Shown: positions 1 through 11,459, numbered from the stretch's first letter. The stretch: 52,256 nucleotides of DNA from Myxococcota bacterium (GCA_023150875.1 JAKLKC010000049.1:1-52256), one strand, 5' to 3'. Made by a program: numbers and translations. Notes: generated by a model not told the origin, from the letters alone.

Positions 1-338
1 AGGCCTGGGACTTCGCCCCGGGGCGGAGCTTCGTCCAGGCCATGCACGACGCCCTGATCCGAGCGCGCCGGGTGCTGACGGTCCTGTCCCCCGACTACTT
101 CCGCTCCGGCTTCGCCACCCCCGAGTGGCAGCACGCCTTCGCCCGCGATCCCCGGGGCGAGGCGGGCACCCTCCTCCCCGTCCGCGTCCGCGACGTCGAT
201 CCCCCCGGCCTCGCCGCGCCCATCGGGTACGTCGACGTCTTCGGCAAGGACGAGGCCACCGCCATCACCCTCCTCCTCTCCGCGGCACGGGGGGAAAGGG
301 GGAAGCCGGCGGCGAGGCCCGACTTCCCCGGACGCTAG
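1..338 (+). CDS. TIR-domain protein, C-terminal part (cut by window edge)
   Basis: The open frame runs in from the left edge (frame of base 3) and ends at the TAG at 336-338. What is visible is the second half of a TIR domain: the WDFAPG segment, the VLSPDYFRSGF strand and loop, and the downstream PEW, whose Glu sits where bacterial TIR NADases carry their catalytic glutamate. The 338 bases match the 3' end of the intact EAD-TIR gene at 2316-3119 with 9 mismatches and no gaps, and change few residues, so both copies are recent paralogues and probably both under constraint. TIR effectors of this kind usually degrade NAD+ or make cyclic ADP-ribose signals when oligomerised. The missing N-terminus probably also carried an EAD-like domain, but that part is outside the window. 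Confidence 0.85.
   Translation, partial: AWDFAPGRSFVQAMHDALIRARRVLTVLSPDYFRSGFATPEWQHAFARDPRGEAGTLLPVRVRDVDPPGLAAPIGYVDVFGKDEATAITLLLSAARGERGKPAARPDFPGR
1..338 (+). repeat. Direct repeat, copy 1 of TIR gene 3' end
   Basis: Direct repeat of 2782-3119 (offset 2781): 338 positions, 9 substitutions, no indels by eye, about 97% identical. Similarity fades about 30 bases after the stop codons. The repeat flanks the AbiE-type pair and the intact TIR gene, so it could support deletion or gene conversion. Confidence 0.9.
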
Positions 339-449
339 CGCCTCCGCGGCGGGCCCTCACCCGAACTTCCCGGCGACCGCGGAGGGCCCCGGTGGGGGCC
401 CGACCGCCGCGATCTCCCGTCGCGCCCGCATCCCCACCGATGGGCACTG

Positions 450-479
450 TTGTATTTCCTAGTTCATCGCACCTATACT
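450..479 (+). promoter_or_regulatory. Putative promoter of the abiE pair
   Basis: A short AT-rich island in GC-rich surroundings carries TTGTAT (450-455) and TATACT (474-479) with an 18-base spacer, ending 15 bases before the ATG at 495. The hexamer TCCTAG occurs twice (457-462 and 479-484), 22 bases or about two helical turns apart, overlapping the promoter. That is a plausible site for autoregulation by the AbiEi-like protein, whose family represses its own operon. Not tested. Confidence 0.45.
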
Positions 480-494
480 CCTAGCTATTACGAC

Positions 495-1103
495 ATGGCC
501 GAACACCCGACCCCTACCGAGCAGGTCCTGGCCTTCGCACGAGAGCGGGGGATCCTCCGCCCGCGGGACCTCGGCGCCGCCGGGCTGTCGACGATCTACC
601 TGACTCGTCTGGTCCACCGTGGGGACCTCGTCCGCCTCGGTCGCGGCCTGTACGCCGTCCCCGACCTCGACCTGACCGAGCACCACACCCTCGCCGAGGT
701 GGCGCGCATCGCCCCCCGCGCGGTGGTCTGCCTGCTCTCGGCGCTTCGCTTCCACGACCTGTCGACCGAGAACCCCCACGAGGTCTGGATCGCGCTGCCC
801 CGGCATGCCTGGAAGCCCCGGTCCACCGGCGTGCCGCTGCGGGTGACCTGGCTCCCCCTGGACCTGCTGGACGCGGACGTCGAGGAGCACGTCGTCGAGG
901 GGGTGCCGGTCAAGGTCTTCACCGCCGCCCGCACGGTCGCCGACTGCTTCCGGCACCGGAAGGAGGTCGGCCACGAGGCGGCGGTCGCGGCGCTGCGCGA
1001 CTACCTCCGCCGATACCCCCGCGGGCTCGAAGACCTGCGCCGCTGCGCCGAGCGTCGTCGAGTCCTGGGCGTCATCCGCCCCTTCGTGGAGGCCCTCACG
1101 TGA
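495..1103 (+). CDS. abiEi: AbiEi-type antitoxin / transcriptional regulator (type IV TA-like)
   Basis: The 202-residue protein starts with a winged-helix-like region (about residues 5-60, with EQVLAFARERGILRPRDL and LVRLGRGLYAVPD), the N-terminal domain typical of AbiEi antitoxins. A second domain of AbiEi C-terminal type follows (ALRFHDLSTENPHEVWIALP and the conserved VKVFTAARTVADCFRHR). AbiEi proteins repress their own operon and neutralise the AbiEii nucleotidyltransferase. The frame is open from 450, but the TTG there lies inside the predicted promoter, so the ATG at 495 is preferred. The stop overlaps the next gene's GTG by four bases, the usual translational coupling of this pair. The pair sits between two TIR gene copies, consistent with a defence island. 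Confidence 0.85.
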   Translation: MAEHPTPTEQVLAFARERGILRPRDLGAAGLSTIYLTRLVHRGDLVRLGRGLYAVPDLDLTEHHTLAEVARIAPRAVVCLLSALRFHDLSTENPHEVWIALPRHAWKPRSTGVPLRVTWLPLDLLDADVEEHVVEGVPVKVFTAARTVADCFRHRKEVGHEAAVAALRDYLRRYPRGLEDLRRCAERRRVLGVIRPFVEALT

Positions 1104-1978
1104 GCGGAAACCTCGGCCACTCGGTGCGCCACCGCCTCCTCAACAGGGCGAAGGCGGAGGGGGCCGACTACAACTCCCTCCTCCTTCGGTACGCCAACGA
1201 GCGCCTCCTGTATCGCCTGTCGCGCTCCAACTGGACCGACGCCTACGTCCTCAAGGGAGCGACGCTGTTCACGGTGTGGACCGGGAAGGCCCACCGCGCG
1301 ACCCGCGACCTGGACCTCCTCGCCTGCGGGGACAACTCCATCGCCGCGGTGGAACAGGTCTTCCGCGCGCTCTGCGCCGTGGAGGTCGAGGACGACGGCC
1401 TCACCTTCGACGCCGCCTCGGTCCACGGGGAGCCCATCCGCGAGGAGGAGGCCTACCTCGGGGTCCGGATCCGCCTGCTCGCCCACCTCACCACGGCCAG
1501 GCTCTCCCTCCAGGTCGACGTCGGATTCGGCGACGCGGTCTACCCGACACCCGTGCGCATCGCGATCCCGACCCTCCTCGACTTCCCGGCTCCAACAATC
1601 CGGGCCTACGCCCCCGAGACCACCATCGCCGAGAAATACCACGCGATGGTCGACCGGGGCCTCCTGAACAGCCGCCTCAAGGACTACTACGACATCTACG
1701 TCCTCTCCCGGACGTTACCCTTCGACGAGCGCCTGGGCGAGGCCATCCGCGCGACCTTCACCCGGCGGGGAACCCCGGTCCCCACCGAGGTACCCGTGGG
1801 GCTCAGCCGCGAGTTTGCCGACCATCCCGAGAAGCGGGCGCAATGGTCGTCGTTCCTGAAGAAGGCAGGGCTGCCGCCACTGGATCTCCCGGAGGTCGTC
1901 GGGCTGGTCCGCCACTTCCTCACGCGGGGTGCCGCCACCGGCGGGTCCGCCCGAGACACGCCCGAACCAGATCGGTGA
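1100..1978 (+). CDS. abiEii: AbiEii-family nucleotidyltransferase toxin
   Basis: The 292-residue protein belongs to the AbiEii/AbiGii family of nucleotidyltransferase-fold toxins. Visible are the substrate-binding LKGATLF segment (about residue 51), the metal-binding RATRDLDLL motif (about residue 67), and the late family motif EKYHAMVDRGLLNSRLKDYYDIY (split here for length: EKYHAMVDRGLL then NSRLKDYYDIY), whose Lys and Asp residues are characteristic. Family members block growth by modifying RNA (tRNA for related MenA/MenT toxins) and can cause phage abortive infection. Translation starts at the GTG at 1100, overlapping the antitoxin stop (GTGA). All key motifs are present, so the toxin looks intact. 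The C-terminal tail is low in structure and Pro/Gly-rich. Confidence 0.85.
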   Translation: MSGNLGHSVRHRLLNRAKAEGADYNSLLLRYANERLLYRLSRSNWTDAYVLKGATLFTVWTGKAHRATRDLDLLACGDNSIAAVEQVFRALCAVEVEDDGLTFDAASVHGEPIREEEAYLGVRIRLLAHLTTARLSLQVDVGFGDAVYPTPVRIAIPTLLDFPAPTIRAYAPETTIAEKYHAMVDRGLLNSRLKDYYDIYVLSRTLPFDERLGEAIRATFTRRGTPVPTEVPVGLSREFADHPEKRAQWSSFLKKAGLPPLDLPEVVGLVRHFLTRGAATGGSARDTPEPDR

Positions 1979-2315: not shown

Positions 2316-3119
2316 ATGAACGGAGACCGTGACCGCGAAGACCTGGCGCGCCTGCGCGACACCCTCTCGAACCTCTACCGCGGGCGCGCCGACGCGGAGC
2401 GGGTGGTGTCGGACGCCGGCCTCGACCTGGACCGCCTGGACCTCGACGGCGGCGCGAAGAACCGCTGGCATCGCATCGTGGACGAGGCGGACAAGCAGAA
2501 GAGGGTGGGCGCCCTCGTCTCGGTCGCCCTGAACGACTACCCGCACGACGAGGTCCTCCTCGCCCTCGCCGGCCGGCCCGCCCCGGCCCCGGCGCCCGCC
2601 CTCGCCCCGGTGGCCGCCCGCGCCGCCCCCGCTCCCTTCCCCGCCGCACCCGCCGCGCCCGAGGGCGCCGCGGTCCCCAAGGGCCCCGTGGACTTCTTCG
2701 TCAGCTACACCCAGGCGGACCGCGCCTGGGCGGAGTGGATCGCCTGGGTGCTGGAGGAGGCGGGGTGGACGTGCATCCTCCAGGCCTGGGACTTCGCCCC
2801 GGGGCGGAGCTTCGTCCAGGCCATGCACGACGCCCTGATCCGAGCGCGCCGGGTGCTGGCGGTCCTTTCCCCCGACTACTTCCGCTCCGGCTTCGCCACC
2901 CCCGAGTGGCAGCACGCCTTCGCCCGCGACCCCCGGGGCGAGGCGGGCACCCTCCTCCCCGTCCGCGTCCGCGAAGTCGATCCCCCAGGCCTCACCGCAC
3001 CCATCGTGTACGTCGACGCCTTCGGCAAGGACGAGGCCACCGCCATCACCCTCCTCCTCTCCGCGGCACGGGGGGAAAGGGGGAAGCCGGCGGCGAGGCC
3101 CGACTTCCCCGGACGCTAG
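2316..3119 (+). CDS. EAD-like domain + TIR effector
   Basis: A 267-residue two-domain protein. Residues about 5-85 form a small helical domain (LRDTLSNLYRGRADAERV ... GAKNRWHRIVDEADKQ ... YPHDEVLLAL) that resembles the effector-associated domains (EADs) of bacterial NACHT/STAND conflict systems. It is clearly homologous to the first 90 residues of the DGR target at 5481-8903. An Ala/Pro-rich linker of about 40 residues follows, then a TIR domain (from DFFVSYTQADRAWAEW to the end) with SPDYFRSGFATPEW, where the Glu is the expected NADase catalytic residue. The ATG at 2316 follows GGAGG at 2304-2308; the frame is open from a TTG at 2301 but that has no site. The shared EAD suggests homotypic recruitment of this TIR effector by the variable NACHT sensor. 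That pairing is inference. It converges on the reverse transcriptase gene with an 18-base gap. Confidence 0.9.
   Translation: MNGDRDREDLARLRDTLSNLYRGRADAERVVSDAGLDLDRLDLDGGAKNRWHRIVDEADKQKRVGALVSVALNDYPHDEVLLALAGRPAPAPAPALAPVAARAAPAPFPAAPAAPEGAAVPKGPVDFFVSYTQADRAWAEWIAWVLEEAGWTCILQAWDFAPGRSFVQAMHDALIRARRVLAVLSPDYFRSGFATPEWQHAFARDPRGEAGTLLPVRVREVDPPGLTAPIVYVDAFGKDEATAITLLLSAARGERGKPAARPDFPGR
2782..3119 (+). repeat. Direct repeat, copy 2 of TIR gene 3' end
   Basis: Partner of the repeat at 1-338 (offset 2781, 9 mismatches in 338). Differences are spread over the first two thirds, and the last 98 bases are identical, which may reflect recent gene conversion. Confidence 0.9.
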
Positions 3120-3137
3120 CGCCTCCGGGGCGGGCCG

Positions 3138-4196
3138 TCACCCGAACATCCACGCCGCCGCCGACGACGATGCGGCTGCCCGCAACCGTTCCGGGTCGCC
3201 GACATGCGCCGCCAGCACAGCGCCGAGGCGGTCCCGGGCCTTCCTCCCGATCTCCAGGCCTCGCCGGGACACCCGGTACCCCAGGTATGCGTGGTCGCGG
3301 TCGGCCCGCACCGGCCGGGCATCCGGATCCTTCAGCTCCAGGCGCCGCCTTTCCCCGAGCCAGCGCCCCAAGGCGTCCCTCGCCTCTACGAGCGCCGCCG
3401 CGTCGTCCCCGAACAGCGCCATGTCGTCCATGTAGCGCTGGTAGGAGGCAACCCCGAGGACCCTCTTGGCGTAGTGGTCGGCCCCGTCGAGGTAGAGGTT
3501 GCCCCACCACTGGCTGGTGAGGTTGCCGATGGGCAGCCCTCGCCCCGGCTCGCCAGGGCCCTCCCAGCCGAGCCAGCTCCAGACGTCCCGCCGCCGGTAC
3601 AGCCCTCCCCCGCTGTCGACCACCTGGTCGAGCAGGGCGCGGAGATCGGCGCCGCCTGCCCTTCCATACACGAGGGTCCTCAGGATCTCGCGGTCGATGG
3701 AGTAGAAGTACCGGCGAACGTCCAGTTGGAGGACGAACCGATATCGTCGCAGCTCACCGAGGAACCGGAGCACCGCCCGGTGGCTGCCCTTCCCCACCAG
3801 GCAGGCGTAGCTCTGATCCAGGAAGGACCGATCCCACCTCGGCGCCAGGACCCGGTGGATTGCGTGGTGGACCACCCGGTCCCGGACGGTCGCGGCGGCG
3901 ACGATCCGCCTCTTGGGGTCCGTGATCCGGAGCAGCCGGTAAGGTCCGGGGTGCCACGCGCCGGAGGCCAGCTCGCGGGCGAGGCGGTGAACGTGCCGGT
4001 CGGCGTCCAGCGCGAATGCCGCGACGTCCGGCCGCCGCCTCTTTCCCCGCTCGAAGTCTCGCCACGCCCGCCACACGTTGTCGACGCTGACGACGTCATC
4101 GAAGCCGGGGGCGGCGATCACCGGCGGCCACCGGCAAGAAGGGGCCCGCTCCAGCGCGCCCGGGGGCGACGGACGGGAGCGGGCCGTGGGGGCCAC
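3138..4196 (-). CDS. DGR-type reverse transcriptase
   Basis: This 352-residue RNA-directed DNA polymerase copies the TR RNA with errors at adenines. The RT core is intact: LQLDVRRYFYSID with the first catalytic Asp (about residue 157), GLPIGNLTSQWWGNLYL (about 220-236; the SQ-type motif is typical of DGR RTs rather than the SP seen in other RTs), and YMDD (255-258). The N-terminal region (DNVWRAWRDFERGKR ... FALDADRHVHRLARELASG) is typical of DGR and related RTs. No maturase/X domain or endonuclease follows, which argues against a group II intron. The start is the GTG at 4196, 50 bases after TR; a GTG at 4121 is an alternative, and neither has a strong ribosome-binding site. It is the last gene of the target-HTH-avd-TR-RT array. 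Confidence 0.95.
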   Translation of the reverse strand: MAPTARSRPSPPGALERAPSCRWPPVIAAPGFDDVVSVDNVWRAWRDFERGKRRRPDVAAFALDADRHVHRLARELASGAWHPGPYRLLRITDPKRRIVAAATVRDRVVHHAIHRVLAPRWDRSFLDQSYACLVGKGSHRAVLRFLGELRRYRFVLQLDVRRYFYSIDREILRTLVYGRAGGADLRALLDQVVDSGGGLYRRRDVWSWLGWEGPGEPGRGLPIGNLTSQWWGNLYLDGADHYAKRVLGVASYQRYMDDMALFGDDAAALVEARDALGRWLGERRRLELKDPDARPVRADRDHAYLGYRVSRRGLEIGRKARDRLGAVLAAHVGDPERLRAAASSSAAAWMFG

Positions 4197-4246: not shown

Positions 4247-4398
4247 CGTGTTCGGGGGGGACACGAACCACCACACGGAACCCGAGGTTGTCGTTCCTGT
4301 TCCTGGGGTCGTTCCTGTTCCGGCAGGCGCAGCGCAGGTTCCTGGGATCGTCGTTCCAGGAACCGCCCCGGACCACCCGGGGCGAGCCGCCGTCATCG
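4247..4398 (-). repeat. DGR template repeat (TR)
   Basis: 152 bases aligning without gaps to VR at 5489-5640 (offset 1242). Sixteen positions differ. Fourteen are T on the plus strand, that is A on the coding strand: 4251, 4289, 4291, 4295, 4300, 4312, 4313, 4319, 4339, 4340, 4343, 4351, 4354 and 4396. The two others are 4271 and 4391. In the core 4289-4354 all 12 differences fall on TR adenines. Read in the target frame, TR is rich in AAC (Asn) codons: WNDDPRN ... RNRNDPRNRNDN. This is the usual codon that adenine mutagenesis converts to almost any residue without making stops. TR lacks a start codon and is non-coding. Its 5' edge overlaps the avd stop codon by six bases, and it lies just upstream of the RT. 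Confidence 0.97.
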
Positions 4399-4737
4399 GT
4401 GACGCGCGTCCAGCGTATCGGACTCGAGGCGGCGAAGCCAGCCCCCGATCTGGCGCCCGATGGCGTCGATCTGCCCGGTCAGGAAGAGGAGGCGGTGCTC
4501 GTCCAGCCCGTCGACCTCGTGGAGGAGGCGGAGGTGGACGCGCAGCAGGACCGCCGCGGCGTCGGCGCGGTCGAGGTTTCCCGAGCGGTCCAACCCCTTC
4601 AGGGCCAGCACGACGGCGTCCAGGAGGTCGAGGGTGCCTGCGTGGACCCGGGCCTCCAGGGGCCCCGCGGCCGGCAGGTTCTTCGAGACCCAGGCGGCGA
4701 GGTCGTAAGCGTGGGCGAAGAGGGGGGCCTCCTTCAC
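4393..4737 (-). CDS. avd: Avd-like DGR accessory variability determinant
   Basis: A 114-residue, almost entirely helical protein with the length and pattern of Avd, the four-helix-bundle partner of DGR reverse transcriptases. The features are an N-terminal helix with FAHAYDLAAWVSKNLP, a LDLLDAVVLALKG helix, a LLRVHLRLLHEVDGLDEHR helix, and the closing LTGQIDAIGRQIGGWLRRL, which matches the family's terminal helix. In the Bordetella phage system Avd is a pentamer that binds RT and TR RNA and is required for cDNA synthesis. Translation begins at GTG 4737, overlapping the preceding gene's stop by four bases. The gene ends inside the 5' edge of TR, so avd and TR probably share one transcript. Confidence 0.88.
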   Translation of the reverse strand: MKEAPLFAHAYDLAAWVSKNLPAAGPLEARVHAGTLDLLDAVVLALKGLDRSGNLDRADAAAVLLRVHLRLLHEVDGLDEHRLLFLTGQIDAIGRQIGGWLRRLESDTLDARHR

Positions 4738-5294
4738 GGGCCCTCGCGGCGCTCGGCGCGGCGGAGCAGGCCCGAGAGCTGGGGAAGGAGTCGCTCCTCC
4801 ACCGACGCGCCGATCTCCTCGGCCCCAGGGCGGCCATCGAGGTACAGCCGCGCCACCGCCGTCGCCGCCAGTTCCCGGGCGTCACGGAAGGCGCCGGACT
4901 TGTCCCGGTGATGGAAGCGGTGGCAGCCCTGGGAGATCCGGATCGCCGCCGTCTCCAGTTCCAGGGTCGCGGCGTGCTCGGTGCCCAGCAGGTCCCGGGT
5001 CGCCCGCCAGGGTCCCACGGCGGACTGGAAGGCCAGCATCTCCCGGACGGAGAAGGACCGGCGGCCGTCGGGGCGCAGGTGGGGGCCGAGGGCTTCCTGG
5101 ACGGCGTCCACCAGGTCCGCGGCCCTGCGCTCCCGGGCCCGCCCCTGGCCCTCGGTCAAGGGAAGGGCGTCCCGCTCGATGACCCAGCGCCCCGCCACCT
5201 TCAGCGCCGCCAGGCGGCCGGTCTGGATCAGGTAGCGGACCTGGCGTTCGGACTGGCCGAGGAGGCGGGCGGCGTCGGCGAGGGAGAGTTGCAT
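4734..5294 (-). CDS. HTH (excisionase/MerR-type) protein of the DGR operon
   Basis: This 186-residue protein opens with a helix-turn-helix of the excisionase/MerR-like class (residues about 1-48: LSLADAARLLGQSERQVRYLIQTGRLAALKVAGRWVI, given here as LSLADAARLLG, then SERQVRYLIQTGRL, then ALKVAGRWVI), the form used by DNA-binding accessory proteins that read a site and place a protein on it. The remaining ~135 residues are helical and charged and were not recognised. The start ATG at 5294 follows GAGGT, and the stop overlaps avd by four bases. The position between target and avd suggests a role in the DGR, either as repressor of the cassette or as a protein that marks VR or directs homing. Both are inference; such an HTH gene is not part of the minimal phage DGR. 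Confidence 0.8.
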   Translation of the reverse strand: MQLSLADAARLLGQSERQVRYLIQTGRLAALKVAGRWVIERDALPLTEGQGRARERRAADLVDAVQEALGPHLRPDGRRSFSVREMLAFQSAVGPWRATRDLLGTEHAATLELETAAIRISQGCHRFHHRDKSGAFRDARELAATAVARLYLDGRPGAEEIGASVEERLLPQLSGLLRRAERREGP

Positions 5295-5329
5295 GGACCT
5301 CGGTCCGGCGGTGGGCGAGCAGGGACCCG

Positions 5330-5358
5330 ATCCTCCCCGTGATGTCGGCCATTGTCAA
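5330..5358 (-). promoter_or_regulatory. Putative promoter of HTH-avd-TR-RT cassette
   Basis: On the minus strand TTGACA (5358-5353) is followed after 17 bases by a weak -10, GAGGAT (5335-5330), about 36 bases before the HTH gene start. The perfect dyad TGTCGACA (5363-5370) lies just upstream and could be an operator. A separate promoter here would let TR and RT be made independently of the target gene. Confidence 0.3.
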
Positions 5359-5400
5359 CGACTGTCGACACGACGACGATGGCCTCGGGGCGACAGCGCC

Positions 5401-5418
5401 GGGAGGGGGCCCCCTCCC
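5401..5418. other. Perfect 18-bp palindrome downstream of VR
   Basis: GGGAGGGGG followed directly by CCCCCTCCC (5401-5418), perfectly self-complementary with no loop, 63 bases past the target stop codon. DGR targets often carry a GC-rich hairpin or cruciform 3' of the IMH that raises homing efficiency, and this is the best candidate here. It could instead act as a terminator between target and HTH gene, but there is no T-tract. Only the inner edge is kept in the orphan copy at 2168-2257. Confidence 0.45.
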
Positions 5419-5498
5419 GGACCCTCCCCTCCCGGCCTGGGCGGCGGAGGCCGCGGGCCCAAAGGACGACGGCCGAGGGATCAAGCCTCGTGCTCGGG
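5409..5498 (-). repeat. 90-bp target tail, original copy
   Basis: Covers the end of VR, the EHEA-stop codons, and the 3' flank of the DGR target. A second copy sits at 2168-2257. Conservation of non-coding flank together with the VR end suggests that this piece has a function in target recognition or was moved with a former target gene. Confidence 0.85.
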
Positions 5499-8400
5499 GG
5501 GGACACGAACCAACACACGGAACCCGAGGTAGCCGTACCTGATCCTGGGGTCGCCCCTGTGCCGGCAGGCGCAGCGCAGGGACCAGGGATCGCCGCTCCA
5601 GGAACCGCCCCGGACCACCCGGGGCGAGCCGCTGTCACCGAGGTGACAAGGATTGTCGACGATCGTGTCGATACGCCCTCCCCCCCGGATGGCCGGCCAG
5701 CTCGCGTCCTTCGCCTCGCGCCAGGTGTCCCGGCACCACTCCCACACGTTGCCGGCGAGGTCCACCAGGTCGTCGTCCCCCCACCGCCGGTGCCCCAGCG
5801 GGTAGGCCCCCACCGGCGTGGGGTGGCCCGGCCCCTCCCCCCTGTAGCCCCCGAAGCTCGCGGGGGCGGCGTCCCCCTGGACGGGGTCGGCGGTGCCGGG
5901 CCAGGGGTAGGTCCGGCCCTCCCTCCCCCTGGCCAGGTACTCCCACTCCGCCTCGGTGGGCAGGTCGACGGCGTGGCCGGCGGGGACCCCCCACGCCTCC
6001 CCCAGGTGGACCGTGGCCCACCGGCAGAAGGCGCGGGCTGCGTACCAGCTCACCCCTGTCACCGGGCGGTTGGGATGAAAGAGCTGGTCAGCCCAACCAA
6101 CCGGCTCGCGGCCGTCGAGTTCCCCCCGGGCGACCCGGCCGGCGCCGTCCCTCCACCACGGGGCGTCGCCCTCCGCGTAGGCGCCGGTGCTCACGAAGGG
6201 CCCGAAGTCCGCCACCGTCACCGGCCGCCACGAGACGCGGAGATCCCCCACCCGCACGCGGTGGGCCGGCGCGGCCTCGTGTGCCTTCTCGTCCCCCCCC
6301 ATCGTGAACACCCCCCCGGGCACCGCCACCCACGGGGGGCCATCGAGGCGGGGATCCCCCAGCCTGCCCAGCGCGTCCAGCGCCCGCAAGCGGTCGTCCA
6401 GGCCCCATCCCTCGCCCTCCGCCCGGTACACCCGCGCCAGCTCCCCTGGGAGGGAGGCCAGCAGCGGGTGGCTCCTGAGGCCGTGGGTCCTCTCGTCGGC
6501 CAGGGCCTCCGCCAGGACCGCATACACGCGGCCGGCCCGGGGGTGGCGGGGGACGCCGTCGCCCCGGGCGTGGGCGTGCAGGCGCTCCGCGAACGCCCGG
6601 GCGTCGTCCCGGTGCCGCTCGCCGTGGACGCCGGCCAGGAAGCGGACCACCCCCCTCCACGCGGGGTCGTCGAACGGGGCGGCGAGCCCCCCCTCGCCCC
6701 GGAGCAGGGCGTCGGTGCCGGCGATCACCGACTCCGCCCGCACCACCTTCTGCCAGGCCACCAGGTAGTCCGAGAAGCTGGCGTGCCAGGGGCGCACCAC
6801 CTTCACGGGCCTCCCCTCCACCCCCTCCACCGGGACCTCCTCGAAGCGCAGCAGCCCCGTCTCGTCGTACAGGCGGTCCAACCCGGACTTGCCCGCCTCC
6901 AGGTCGGGGAAGTCCTGGGGCCTCGCCCTCCCCAGGGCCCCCGCGGCGTCCTCCACCGCCAGGGCCGTCCGCGACTTCCCCCCCGCCGCCGTGCCCCGGA
7001 CCTGCATGGCCTCGAAGACCACCGCCAGGGCCTCTTTCTTGCTGTTCCACGTGGGGAACGGGCTCGTCACCGGCGCCGGACCGCCCGGCGCGGGCGGCCC
7101 GTCCCGCCCCTCAGCGGGGGAGCGCAGCTTGCACAGGACGTCCACGACCTGGTGGTAGAGCTGGGCGACGGACTCCGGGAGCCGCCCCTGCTCGGCGTAG
7201 ACCGTCATCGTGCAGGTCAGCAGCAGGGGGTTGTCCCGGAGGACCGGCTGGTCCAGCCGGGCGCAGGTCTGGTCGATGCACCGCACCATTCTCCCCCGCC
7301 TCTCCTCGTCCCAACCCCGGGCGGCGCTCCAGCGGGCGACGATCCGCTCCTGGTCGTCCCGATCCAGCGATGCGGCTCGGGCCACGGGGAGATCCCTGAA
7401 GTCCACCTCCCCCAGCCAGGCGGAGGGGCGGGTGCTGAGGACGAACCGGGCCCTGGGGTGAGCCGCCGCCAGGCACTTCAGGCCCCCCAGGACGAGGCGC
7501 CGGCCCGCCTCGGTGCCGATCTCGTCCAGGGCGTCCACCAGCAGCAGGTAGCGGGACTGGGCGAGCCCCGCGTGGACCTCGGCCTCGTCCGGGGGCGGAG
7601 AGACGAACCTCTTGATCTCGGCCCGGATGGCCTCCACGACCCCCGGCACCCCCTCTCGCCCGGCCAGGCAGGTGGCCAGGGCGCTCGCCGTCAGGAGCAC
7701 GGGCAGGCGGGGCGAGAGGGGTGCGCCGGCGCCCAGGGCCTCCAGGTCGAGGCGGTGCTCCGGCGCCCCGTCCTGCAGGTGAATGGCGGCCAGGGCGTAG
7801 GCGGCGTGTTGGAGGAGGACCGTCTTGCCGGCCCCCGGCTCTCCCTCCACCACCAGGTGGGGGAGGTCCGGGCGGCTCAGCAGGGCCTCCAGCCAGGGCT
7901 TCTCTCTCTGTTCGGGAGCCTCGATGCCCCTCTCCGATCCCCTCCCCTTCCGCGCCTTCGGGGACGCGCCCGCTCCGCCCCCCGGAGGCGCCGGATCCCC
8001 TTCGGCCCGCAGCGAGACGTAGAGGTCCGCCCGGTGGAGCTTCCGCCCCAGGGAGCCCAGGGGGCCGAGGGATCCCTCCCGCCAACCGACCCGGGCCTGG
8101 CGGAGGTAGGTCTCCTCCCAGGGGGTGGGGACGGCCCCTCCCCCGGGCCTGGGGGGAAGACGCTCCTCCAGCCACGCGGCGATGGCGCGGCGGGCGGCGT
8201 CGGAGGCCCCGTCGGGGGTGTCGAACTCCGGGGCACTCGCGGCGAGGTCGTGCAGTTCCAGGGCCGGAGCCAACTCGGAGCGGAAGTCGCGGTTCCTGAA
8301 GTCCGCGGCCCTGAACTTCAGGACCGAGGGCCGCGGATCCAGGCCGAACGCCCCCGCCAGCACCCCGGTCCCTCCGGTGCGGGCGCCCAGGAGGACCACG

Positions 8401-8903
8401 ACGGGGCCCGCGTCGCCCCGGGGGACGGCGGCCCCGGCCTTCCCGGCGTCCACCAGGTCCACCCCCGAGATCCCCGGCAGGTCCCGGACCCTCTCGGCGA
8501 CCCGCCTCTGGAAGTCCCCGAGCTCCTGGGCGACGGCGACGACCGCGGCACGGAACCGACCGGCGACGGAGGTCCCTCCGCCGTCCCGCGGCTCGTCCGG
8601 ACGGCCCGCGCCCGCGACGATCCGGGCAGCCTCGGGGTGGGACCTGGCCCTGGGGAGCAGCGCGTTCAGGCCCTCGTCCTGCCGGTACTGCACCCACGCC
8701 AAGGCGCACAACACCTCGGCGCACCGTTGCTTTCCCGCCTCATCGAGGAGCCGGAACCAGCGGTTCTCGGGCTTCCCGTCCAGGTCCAGGTGCGCAGCAT
8801 CCAGCCCCGCGTCGCTCGCGAGCCGCTCCGCGTCCGCCCGTTCACGATAGAGCCGCGCCAGGGTGGCGCGGAGCTGGGTGACCTCTGCCTTGGTGAACCC
8901 CAC
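5481..8903 (-). CDS. DGR target: EAD - NACHT NTPase - variable FGE/CLec domain
   Basis: A 1140-residue sensor-like protein. Residues about 5-90 form an EAD-like domain shared with the TIR protein at 2316-3119. About 95-330 is unrecognised and leads into a NACHT/STAND NTPase with Walker A GEPGAGKT (354-361), Walker B LLLVDALDEI (about 452-461) and a downstream FVLSTRPSAW. A helical region follows. From about 855 to the end is a formylglycine-generating-enzyme (FGE-sulfatase) fold, the C-type-lectin-like scaffold used by many DGR targets: WVAVPGGVFTMGG, DLPTEAEWEYLARG, LVDLAGNVWEWCRDTW, RVVRGGSW. VR covers residues about 1089-1138, with diversified positions between 1103 and 1125. The C-terminal variable fold probably binds ligand, and the NTPase would transduce binding. 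The GTG start at 8903 has a GGGAGGGGG site. No signal peptide or membrane segment is seen, so it is probably cytoplasmic. Confidence 0.93.
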   Translation of the reverse strand: MGFTKAEVTQLRATLARLYRERADAERLASDAGLDAAHLDLDGKPENRWFRLLDEAGKQRCAEVLCALAWVQYRQDEGLNALLPRARSHPEAARIVAGAGRPDEPRDGGGTSVAGRFRAAVVAVAQELGDFQRRVAERVRDLPGISGVDLVDAGKAGAAVPRGDAGPVVVLLGARTGGTGVLAGAFGLDPRPSVLKFRAADFRNRDFRSELAPALELHDLAASAPEFDTPDGASDAARRAIAAWLEERLPPRPGGGAVPTPWEETYLRQARVGWREGSLGPLGSLGRKLHRADLYVSLRAEGDPAPPGGGAGASPKARKGRGSERGIEAPEQREKPWLEALLSRPDLPHLVVEGEPGAGKTVLLQHAAYALAAIHLQDGAPEHRLDLEALGAGAPLSPRLPVLLTASALATCLAGREGVPGVVEAIRAEIKRFVSPPPDEAEVHAGLAQSRYLLLVDALDEIGTEAGRRLVLGGLKCLAAAHPRARFVLSTRPSAWLGEVDFRDLPVARAASLDRDDQERIVARWSAARGWDEERRGRMVRCIDQTCARLDQPVLRDNPLLLTCTMTVYAEQGRLPESVAQLYHQVVDVLCKLRSPAEGRDGPPAPGGPAPVTSPFPTWNSKKEALAVVFEAMQVRGTAAGGKSRTALAVEDAAGALGRARPQDFPDLEAGKSGLDRLYDETGLLRFEEVPVEGVEGRPVKVVRPWHASFSDYLVAWQKVVRAESVIAGTDALLRGEGGLAAPFDDPAWRGVVRFLAGVHGERHRDDARAFAERLHAHARGDGVPRHPRAGRVYAVLAEALADERTHGLRSHPLLASLPGELARVYRAEGEGWGLDDRLRALDALGRLGDPRLDGPPWVAVPGGVFTMGGDEKAHEAAPAHRVRVGDLRVSWRPVTVADFGPFVSTGAYAEGDAPWWRDGAGRVARGELDGREPVGWADQLFHPNRPVTGVSWYAARAFCRWATVHLGEAWGVPAGHAVDLPTEAEWEYLARGREGRTYPWPGTADPVQGDAAPASFGGYRGEGPGHPTPVGAYPLGHRRWGDDDLVDLAGNVWEWCRDTWREAKDASWPAIRGGGRIDTIVDNPCHLGDSGSPRVVRGGSWSGDPWSLRCACRHRGDPRIRYGYLGFRVLVRVPPEHEA
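5489..5640 (-). repeat. DGR variable repeat (VR)
   Basis: Last third of the FGE domain of the target, aligned to TR at 4247-4398. Relative to TR, ten codons between residues 1103 and 1125 carry twelve adenine substitutions: N to S, D to G, R to W, N to S, N to H, N to G, N to I, N to Y, D to G, N to Y. The invariant framework between them (LRCAC, GFRV) is kept. The 3' end (coding sense) is a C/G-rich run that would serve as the initiation of mutagenic homing (IMH). It differs from TR by a G-to-T at 5513 and an A-to-G at 5493, as expected for an IMH/IMH* pair. Confidence 0.97.
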
Positions 8904-10709: not shown

Positions 10710-11459
10710 TCACTTCTTCTTGTTGGCGTTGTTGGGGTTGTCCGTGCCCTGGTTGGGGCTGTTGGACTTGCCGCCCCCCTGTCCGGGGTTGGTCCCATCG
10801 CCGAGGCCGGAGTGGTTCCCGTGGGAGCCACCATCGTCGTCATCGTCATCGTCATCGTCATCGTCGTCCCCGCCCGCGGGCACGTCCCCGTCGTCGGCGA
10901 GGTCGTCGTCGCCGCCAGCGTCGTCGGCGCCATCGTCGTCACTCGTGGCGCCGTCGTCTCCAACGGAGTCGTCCCCGCCATCGCCGTCGTCTCCCCCCTC
11001 CGCCGGCACGTCGCCGTCGTCGGCCAGGTCGTCGTCTCCGTCGCCCCCGTCATCGCCTCCGCCCTCGCCCTCGTCCTCGCCCCCCGCCCCGCCGTCGCCG
11101 CCGCCGTCGCCTCCGCCGCCTCCCTCCCCCGCCGTGGTGTCCGGCGCGCCGCCGCCTCCTCCCCCGCTGGAAGGACCGTCCTCGGCCTCGTCCTTGCCGT
11201 CTCCGGCGTCCCCCGCTCCGGCGTCCTCTTCGCCCCCCGTGGTGTCCCCGGGCCCTCCGCCGTCCCCCTCGGCCCCGTCATCCCCGCCCGCGCCGTCCTC
11301 GTCGCCCGCCCCGATCGCCTTTCCGGCGGCCGGCGGCCCCGGGCGGTCGTACACGTCGGTGAACACCACCCGGACCGTTCCCGCGACGGCCGCCGCGGGC
11401 AACGCCAGGCCGATACAGATACAGATCGCGCCCAGGGCGCGTGTGTCGATGTGTCTCAC
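10710..11459 (-). CDS. Asp/Gly-rich secreted low-complexity protein
   Basis: A 249-residue protein with a signal peptide (ALGAICICIGLALPAAAVAG). A short ordered start, TVRVVFTDVYDRPGPPAAGK, ends in a long acidic, glycine-rich region with runs of Asp up to a dozen. The segment GGDDDLADDGDVPA occurs twice (about residues 143-156 and 182-195). The end is basic and Asn-rich (SPNQGTDNPNNANKKK). Such acidic stretches may bind calcium or act as flexible spacers, but no known family was recognised. Codon choice (GAC, GGC) follows the high GC, so part of the composition may reflect repeat slippage. The start is the GTG at 11459 with GGAGATC upstream. It converges on the GH5 gene with a 27-base gap. 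Confidence 0.7.
   Translation of the reverse strand: MRHIDTRALGAICICIGLALPAAAVAGTVRVVFTDVYDRPGPPAAGKAIGAGDEDGAGGDDGAEGDGGGPGDTTGGEEDAGAGDAGDGKDEAEDGPSSGGGGGGAPDTTAGEGGGGGDGGGDGGAGGEDEGEGGGDDGGDGDDDLADDGDVPAEGGDDGDGGDDSVGDDGATSDDDGADDAGGDDDLADDGDVPAGGDDDDDDDDDDDDGGSHGNHSGLGDGTNPGQGGGKSNSPNQGTDNPNNANKKK

Follow-up and report, generated by a model that had tools for sequence, protein, structure and literature searches.

Diversity-generating retroelements (DGRs) have been tied to bacterial conflict systems in two settings that resemble the locus reported here. DGR 6 of Thiohalocapsa PB-PSB1 rewrites the C-terminal FGE-type C-lectin domain of EAD-bearing STAND NTPases, and the same EAD is also carried by a nearby effector (Dore et al., 2024; PMC10907252). 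The EAD conflict systems use EAD1 as an adaptor between core and effector, and include DGR-tied FGS domains and TIR effectors (Kaur et al., 2020; PMC7159879). For the DGR of Bordetella phage BPP-1, cDNA synthesis by the reverse transcriptase (RT) and Avd, and the retrohoming that follows, have been described (PMC12875486). We analyzed a 52,256-nt stretch of DNA from a Myxococcota bacterium (GCA_023150875.1, JAKLKC010000049.1:1-52256; hereafter the window), which encodes what is probably a chromosomal DGR that diversifies NLR-like immune sensors, with predicted EAD1-mediated recruitment of a TIR effector. The features of an EAD-STAND conflict system are found: a STAND NTPase, an EAD, and an FGE sensor are combined in one protein, and the same EAD occurs on a nearby separate protein.

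The cassette is encoded entirely on the minus strand, in the order target (8903-5481), helix-turn-helix (HTH) gene (5294-4734), avd (4737-4393), template repeat (TR1), and RT (4196-3138). This order is as given in the initial annotation, which took it to be that of active DGRs, although the HTH gene lies outside the textbook cassette. TR1 (4247-4398, minus strand) is a 152-nt repeat of the variable repeat (VR1), located between avd and the RT gene, with its first bases overlapping the avd stop codon. The target gene has VR1 (5489-5640, minus strand) at its 3' end, where it continues the FGE reading frame and is followed within a few codons by the stop codon. The two repeats align without gaps over 152 nt at an offset of 1242, and realignment reproduced the annotated coordinates exactly. 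On the minus (coding) strand, 16 of the 152 positions differ and 14 of these are TR adenines, the same two figures as previously counted. The adenine changes comprise 7 A>G, 5 A>T, and 2 A>C; position 4391 (G>A) and position 4271 (G>T), the remaining two, are both outside the hypermutated core. Because TR1 contains 27 adenines in 152 nt, the probability of this placement by chance is ~9e-11 (hypergeometric), in keeping with the earlier statement that a chance origin of the core pattern is very unlikely. All 12 differences in the core (4289-4354) are at adenines, as had been noted, such that 12 of 20 adenines (rather than the 21 originally given) and 0 of 46 other bases are changed. Ten core codons are altered, seven of them AAC, in line with the description "mostly AAC" (N to S, S, H, G, I, Y, and Y; D to G twice; R to W). 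TR1 adenines are nearly all at codon positions 1 and 2, and the adenine-bearing core codons (AAC, GAC, GAT, and AGG) cannot be converted to a stop codon by A-to-N change; the coding capacity of the core is ~3.5e12 protein variants.

Downstream of VR1, the search for a hairpin/cruciform found a 9-bp stem at ~70-90 nt, with folding no better than that of shuffled sequences; such a hairpin is not needed by every DGR. An Rfam scan of the window gave no match, nor did a search of viral contigs with the VR pattern bearing N at adenines.

RT1 (3138-4196, minus strand; Pfam RVT_1, E 9.5e-8) carries IGNLTSQ at 223 and YMDD at 255, and was aligned with five other DGR RTs; its annotated GTG start may be ~25 codons too early, as judged against the RT of a second DGR (RT2, below). 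The accessory variability determinant gene, avd (4393-4737, minus strand; Pfam bAvd, E 4e-10), shares 4 nt (GTGA) with the HTH gene. The Avd profile search matches the solved BPP-1 Avd 4DWL (E 9e-5) as well as the Avd of the 8UB7 series, and 4DWL is also the best fold match of the Avd structure model (best chains 4DWL, 2GSC, and 2RLD, at E 0.003 to 0.02). The target (5481-8903, minus strand) is an EAD1-NACHT-FGE (C-lectin) protein of 1140 aa (Pfam EAD1, E 1.4e-8; NACHT, 8.9e-8; FGE-sulfatase, 3.5e-42), with Walker A (GEPGAGKT at residue 354) and Walker B (LLLVDALDE) motifs; its predicted product is an NLR-like receptor. The FGE-sulfatase domain spans residues 856-1131, the end of the domain falling in VR1, and matches in the PDB include TvpA 2Y3C (E 2e-6). 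Where the FGE catalytic cysteine pair (after the GGS motif) would be, the target reads GGSWSGDPWSLRCAC; compared by eye with the FGE motif, this presumably has VR-encoded residues in place of the catalytic cysteines. Together, the RT motifs, the bAvd match, the TR/VR adenine signature, and the position of the VR at a C-terminal FGE-type C-lectin domain confirm, by the sequence features tested, that the locus is a genuine DGR, and the initial assignment as a complete element with an adenine signature is upheld.

The pattern is repeated elsewhere in the same genome, which was searched in full with TR1 and with the template repeat of the second DGR (TR2). The search with TR1 yielded VR2 (C121:53353-53494), at the very end of a contig, with 14/16 differences at TR1 adenines. 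The VR2 target gene (L013:5807-8494) encodes a NACHT-FGE protein with an N-terminal EAD1-like segment that has 38% identity to the EAD1 of the first target and is under the Pfam cut-off (E 0.0025). Two VRs share TR1, and each lies where the FGE-type C-lectin domain of a NACHT protein ends. A second full DGR is present on contig C93 (L014, G000:C93:3000-16000), comprising RT2 (58% identical to RT1), TR2, avd, an HTH gene, and two convergent targets: a TIR-NACHT-FGE protein that holds VR3 (19/19 differences at TR2 adenines) and a NACHT-FGE protein that holds VR4 (11/11). The segment C93:7971-8103 was considered as a VR of TR1 and rejected, being the TR of this second DGR. Beyond VR1-VR4, the whole-genome searches with TR1 and TR2 returned no convincing VR. 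An RT scan of the genome_contigs set gave a single distant, uninformative match.

Differences equally common at non-adenine positions, the pattern that the initial annotation had set against a DGR, are not seen: pooled over the four TR/VR pairs, 58/62 differences are at TR adenines (P per pair 4e-18 to 1e-9), and the hypermutated core has zero non-A differences in all four, which argues for apparently recent DGR activity. An origin without a DGR, in which paralogous segments diverged by drift, gene conversion, or diversifying selection, could be entertained given that duplicated segments are common here (a TIR gene copy at 1-370 and a 94-nt repeat at 2168-2261/5409-5502). However, the true duplication (window 1-370 vs. 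2782-3151, plus strand; 370 nt at 97% identity) has 5 of its 12 differences at A, vs. 14/16, 14/16, 19/19, and 11/11 in the TR/VR pairs. This base bias rules out gene conversion or drift as the source of the TR/VR differences, and we regard a DGR-free origin as having a negligible probability.

The adenine signature is also evident in relatives of the same class and phylum (L031, 16/17; L034, 15/15; L035, 19/19; L039, 17/21; L069, 15/15, 17/18, and 15/19; L068, 18/25 and 14/17). Other loci show decay. At G352:C80, avd is truncated and the RT is missing; there, as at G284:C757 and G051:C255, an HTH gene and a convergent pair of diversified targets are kept, with no RT on the stretch. In G019 the RT is partial and a TR was not found. 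For the paired G051 targets, the search for an RT gave just a weak match (E 1e-8), and no TR for the L071 VRs was found in the other G284 loci examined. The target pairs of L070, L071, and L072 (G352, G284, and G051, respectively), which are convergent FGE-type genes that flank an HTH gene, show codon variation of the DGR kind, and have no RT/TR, are either relics or targets served in trans.

Such decay, together with the two non-A differences in the flanks of VR1 and again of VR2, would be expected if the cassette in the window were itself a relic, having diversified its targets in the past and since lost retrohoming. We consider this improbable: RT1 and avd are intact with catalytic motifs, and the cores of all four pairs are free of non-A differences, unlike old copies in relatives (such as the 18/25 of L068).

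A candidate effector is encoded on the plus strand at 2316-3119, namely a TIR-EAD1 protein (Pfam TIR_2, E 4e-36; EAD1, E 1e-12) in which the glutamate aligned to the conserved TIR glutamate is kept. Just two EAD1 domains are above threshold genome-wide, in the target and in this protein, ~5.5 kb apart. The C-terminal part of a second TIR gene (1-338, plus strand) is cut by the contig start. As both breaks (the C121 end inside VR2, and the window left edge in the second TIR gene) fit an assembly gap at repeats, contigs C121 and C124 may adjoin. Joined, they would read target 2 (+), TIR gene (+), AbiE, TIR-EAD1, RT (-), TR, avd, HTH, and target 1 (-), a convergent arrangement like that of the C93 and G019 loci. 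Beside the DGR locus is an AbiEi/AbiEii type IV toxin-antitoxin pair (450-1978, plus strand), the proximity of which suggests a defence island. The 94-nt direct repeat (97%) takes in the final codons of the target gene and the adjoining 3' sequence, has its second copy just upstream of the TIR-EAD1 gene, and may be a trace of duplication or of a lost second target; as a conserved cassette boundary it was rejected, there being no copy in the C121 or C93 stretches. An open reading frame of low complexity, rich in Gly/Asp and in short repeats, is found at 10710-11459 (minus strand).

By homology to BPP-1, RT1 and Avd would reverse-transcribe TR1 RNA, misreading template adenines, and the mutagenized cDNA would take the place of the VR (retrohoming). 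From the domains present, binding of a ligand by the variable lectin face would lead to NACHT oligomerization, whereupon the N-terminal EAD1 would recruit the neighboring TIR-EAD1 protein through EAD1 pairing; the recruited TIR would then consume NAD+, such that the infected cell is killed or arrested. The coupled HTH protein is proposed to regulate the cassette or to assist retrohoming. TIR as the natural output is supported by the C93 sensor, which carries a TIR fused in cis. The RT type, bAvd, gene order, EAD1-NACHT-FGE architecture, and AbiEi/AbiEii neighbors all back the proposal of a DGR that diversifies immune sensors, as do the published parallels (PMC10907252; PMC7159879). Several points weigh against it: VR2 is on a contig end, in a gene without its last codons, so that its linkage to the cassette is putative; PADLOC assigns no known defence system to the sensor or to the DGR; present-day DGR activity is deduced from sequence; EAD1 pairing and TIR NADase activity are predicted; and the ligand of the sensor is putative.

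The DGR could also be real and active while the NACHT-FGE proteins serve a non-antiviral role, such as kin recognition, development, or environmental signaling. This would accord with the putative status of both ligand and phenotype, and with the interpretation of cyanobacterial DGR targets as regulatory proteins (PMC7517822). Nevertheless, the EAD1/TIR partner, the NACHT core, and the AbiE neighbors point to conflict systems, as do the parallels in Thiohalocapsa (PMC10907252), and such a role appears rather unlikely.

The gene that is coupled to avd encodes an HTH_17 protein of 186 aa (4734-5294, minus strand; Pfam HTH_17, E 3e-8), with an N-terminal HTH and a C-terminal four-helix bundle (AlphaFold2 model, pLDDT 88). 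Among 379 genomes of the phylum, profile searching recovered nine strong homologues (over 100 bits; two are partial matches) in seven genomes, 9/9 beside FGE-type target genes. The overlap with avd is exactly 4 nt (GTGA or ATGA) in 5/5 loci that have both genes, G352 with its truncated avd among them. The HTH gene of G101:C40 leads directly into the TR and no avd was detected there, the sole bAvd match of that genome being at another DGR. The HTH reading frame of this locus (L069:9323-10240, plus strand) continues through the TR without a stop, and the TR-encoded peptide could be translated as a C-terminal tail of the HTH protein. No HTH homologue was found in plasmid records, and an HTH gene neighboring avd is undescribed in five DGR papers (PMC10907252; PMC10053308; PMC8144416; PMC7517822; PMC6642488); the 2018 Nucleic Acids Research DGR survey is outside this scope, and novelty is provisional. 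At Thiohalocapsa DGR 8, one HTH gene replaces a VMAP, and does not adjoin avd (PMC10907252).

The function that we lean towards, if only slightly, is that of a plain transcription regulator of the target/DGR operon with no part in retrohoming. Its DNA-binding domain resembles those of BldC, MerR-type, and Xis proteins, the gene is retained beside targets at RT-less loci, and profile comparison detects no sequence resemblance to Avd: an Avd paralogue is not supported at the sequence level (hhalign probability 0.3%; bAvd/S23 Pfam match in 0/8 members). The invariant overlap with avd, the arrangement at G101:C40, and a helix bundle weakly nearest to an S23/Avd-related fold fit this role less well. 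The best PDB match of the HTH protein model is 2GSC (weak: E 0.075, prob 1.00, TM 0.62 by target), with 2RLD also matched; both are S23-family structures, and Avd is a relative of that family (PMC10053308). A tentative alternative is that the protein is a second, DNA-binding DGR cofactor, made in amounts coupled to Avd, which with its excisionase/BldC-like HTH and Avd-like four-helix bundle would bring the RT-Avd complex or mutagenized cDNA to the VR, and would replace Avd at G101:C40. It is ranked below the regulator because the fold E-values are weak, 4DWL is outside the top 50 of the fold search with the HTH protein model, and there is no profile link to Avd.

NACHT sensors diversified by a DGR are good candidates for a bacterial immunity that is anticipatory and antibody-like, and this genome offers a clean case, with one TR for two EAD1-type NACHT sensors, a TIR-EAD1 protein nearby, and a sister DGR sensor with TIR in cis. 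This combination makes the logic that links sensor to effector directly testable. The avd-coupled HTH gene provides a lead to the least understood DGR step, by which mutated cDNA finds and replaces its target.

The BPP-1 DGR shares the avd-TR-RT order of the mtd-avd-TR-brt cassette, the Avd fold (4DWL), and adenine-directed change with the DGR in the window, but has a phage tail-fibre target, no HTH gene, and a single VR. Treponema denticola TvpA (2Y3C) is likewise an FGE-type C-lectin variable protein, and is not known to carry EAD1 or NACHT. Among named plasmid records, the nearest RTs (38-42% identity) are cyanobacterial (Acaryochloris NZ_AP026076 and Nostoc NZ_CP117770), which fits the cellular DGR lineage of Dore et al. 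(PMC10907252); there, too, avd-RT adjoin FGE targets, but the neighbors are MoxR/AAA ATPases and proteases, and no HTH gene is present between target and avd. The EAD conflict systems of Kaur et al. (2020) are described mainly as vWA-MoxR ternary systems, whereas the cassette in the window has no such partners. Thiohalocapsa PB-PSB1 DGR 6 differs in having nSTAND1, EAD8, and a trypsin-like protease, vs. NACHT, EAD1, and TIR, plus an avd-coupled HTH gene, in the window. The window most likely encodes NACHT sensors whose ligand face is rewritten by the DGR and which engage a TIR effector through EAD1, a scheme already set out by Kaur et al. (2020) and Dore et al. (2024), with EAD1-NACHT-FGE plus TIR-EAD1 following the plan of EAD8-nSTAND1-FGE plus protease with other parts. 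What is likely distinct here is a DGR that serves at least two receptors, has as its neighbor a TIR protein that is likely a cell-death effector, and includes an additional, conserved gene for a DNA-binding protein; it is this conserved, translationally coupled HTH gene that marks the departure from the known kind.

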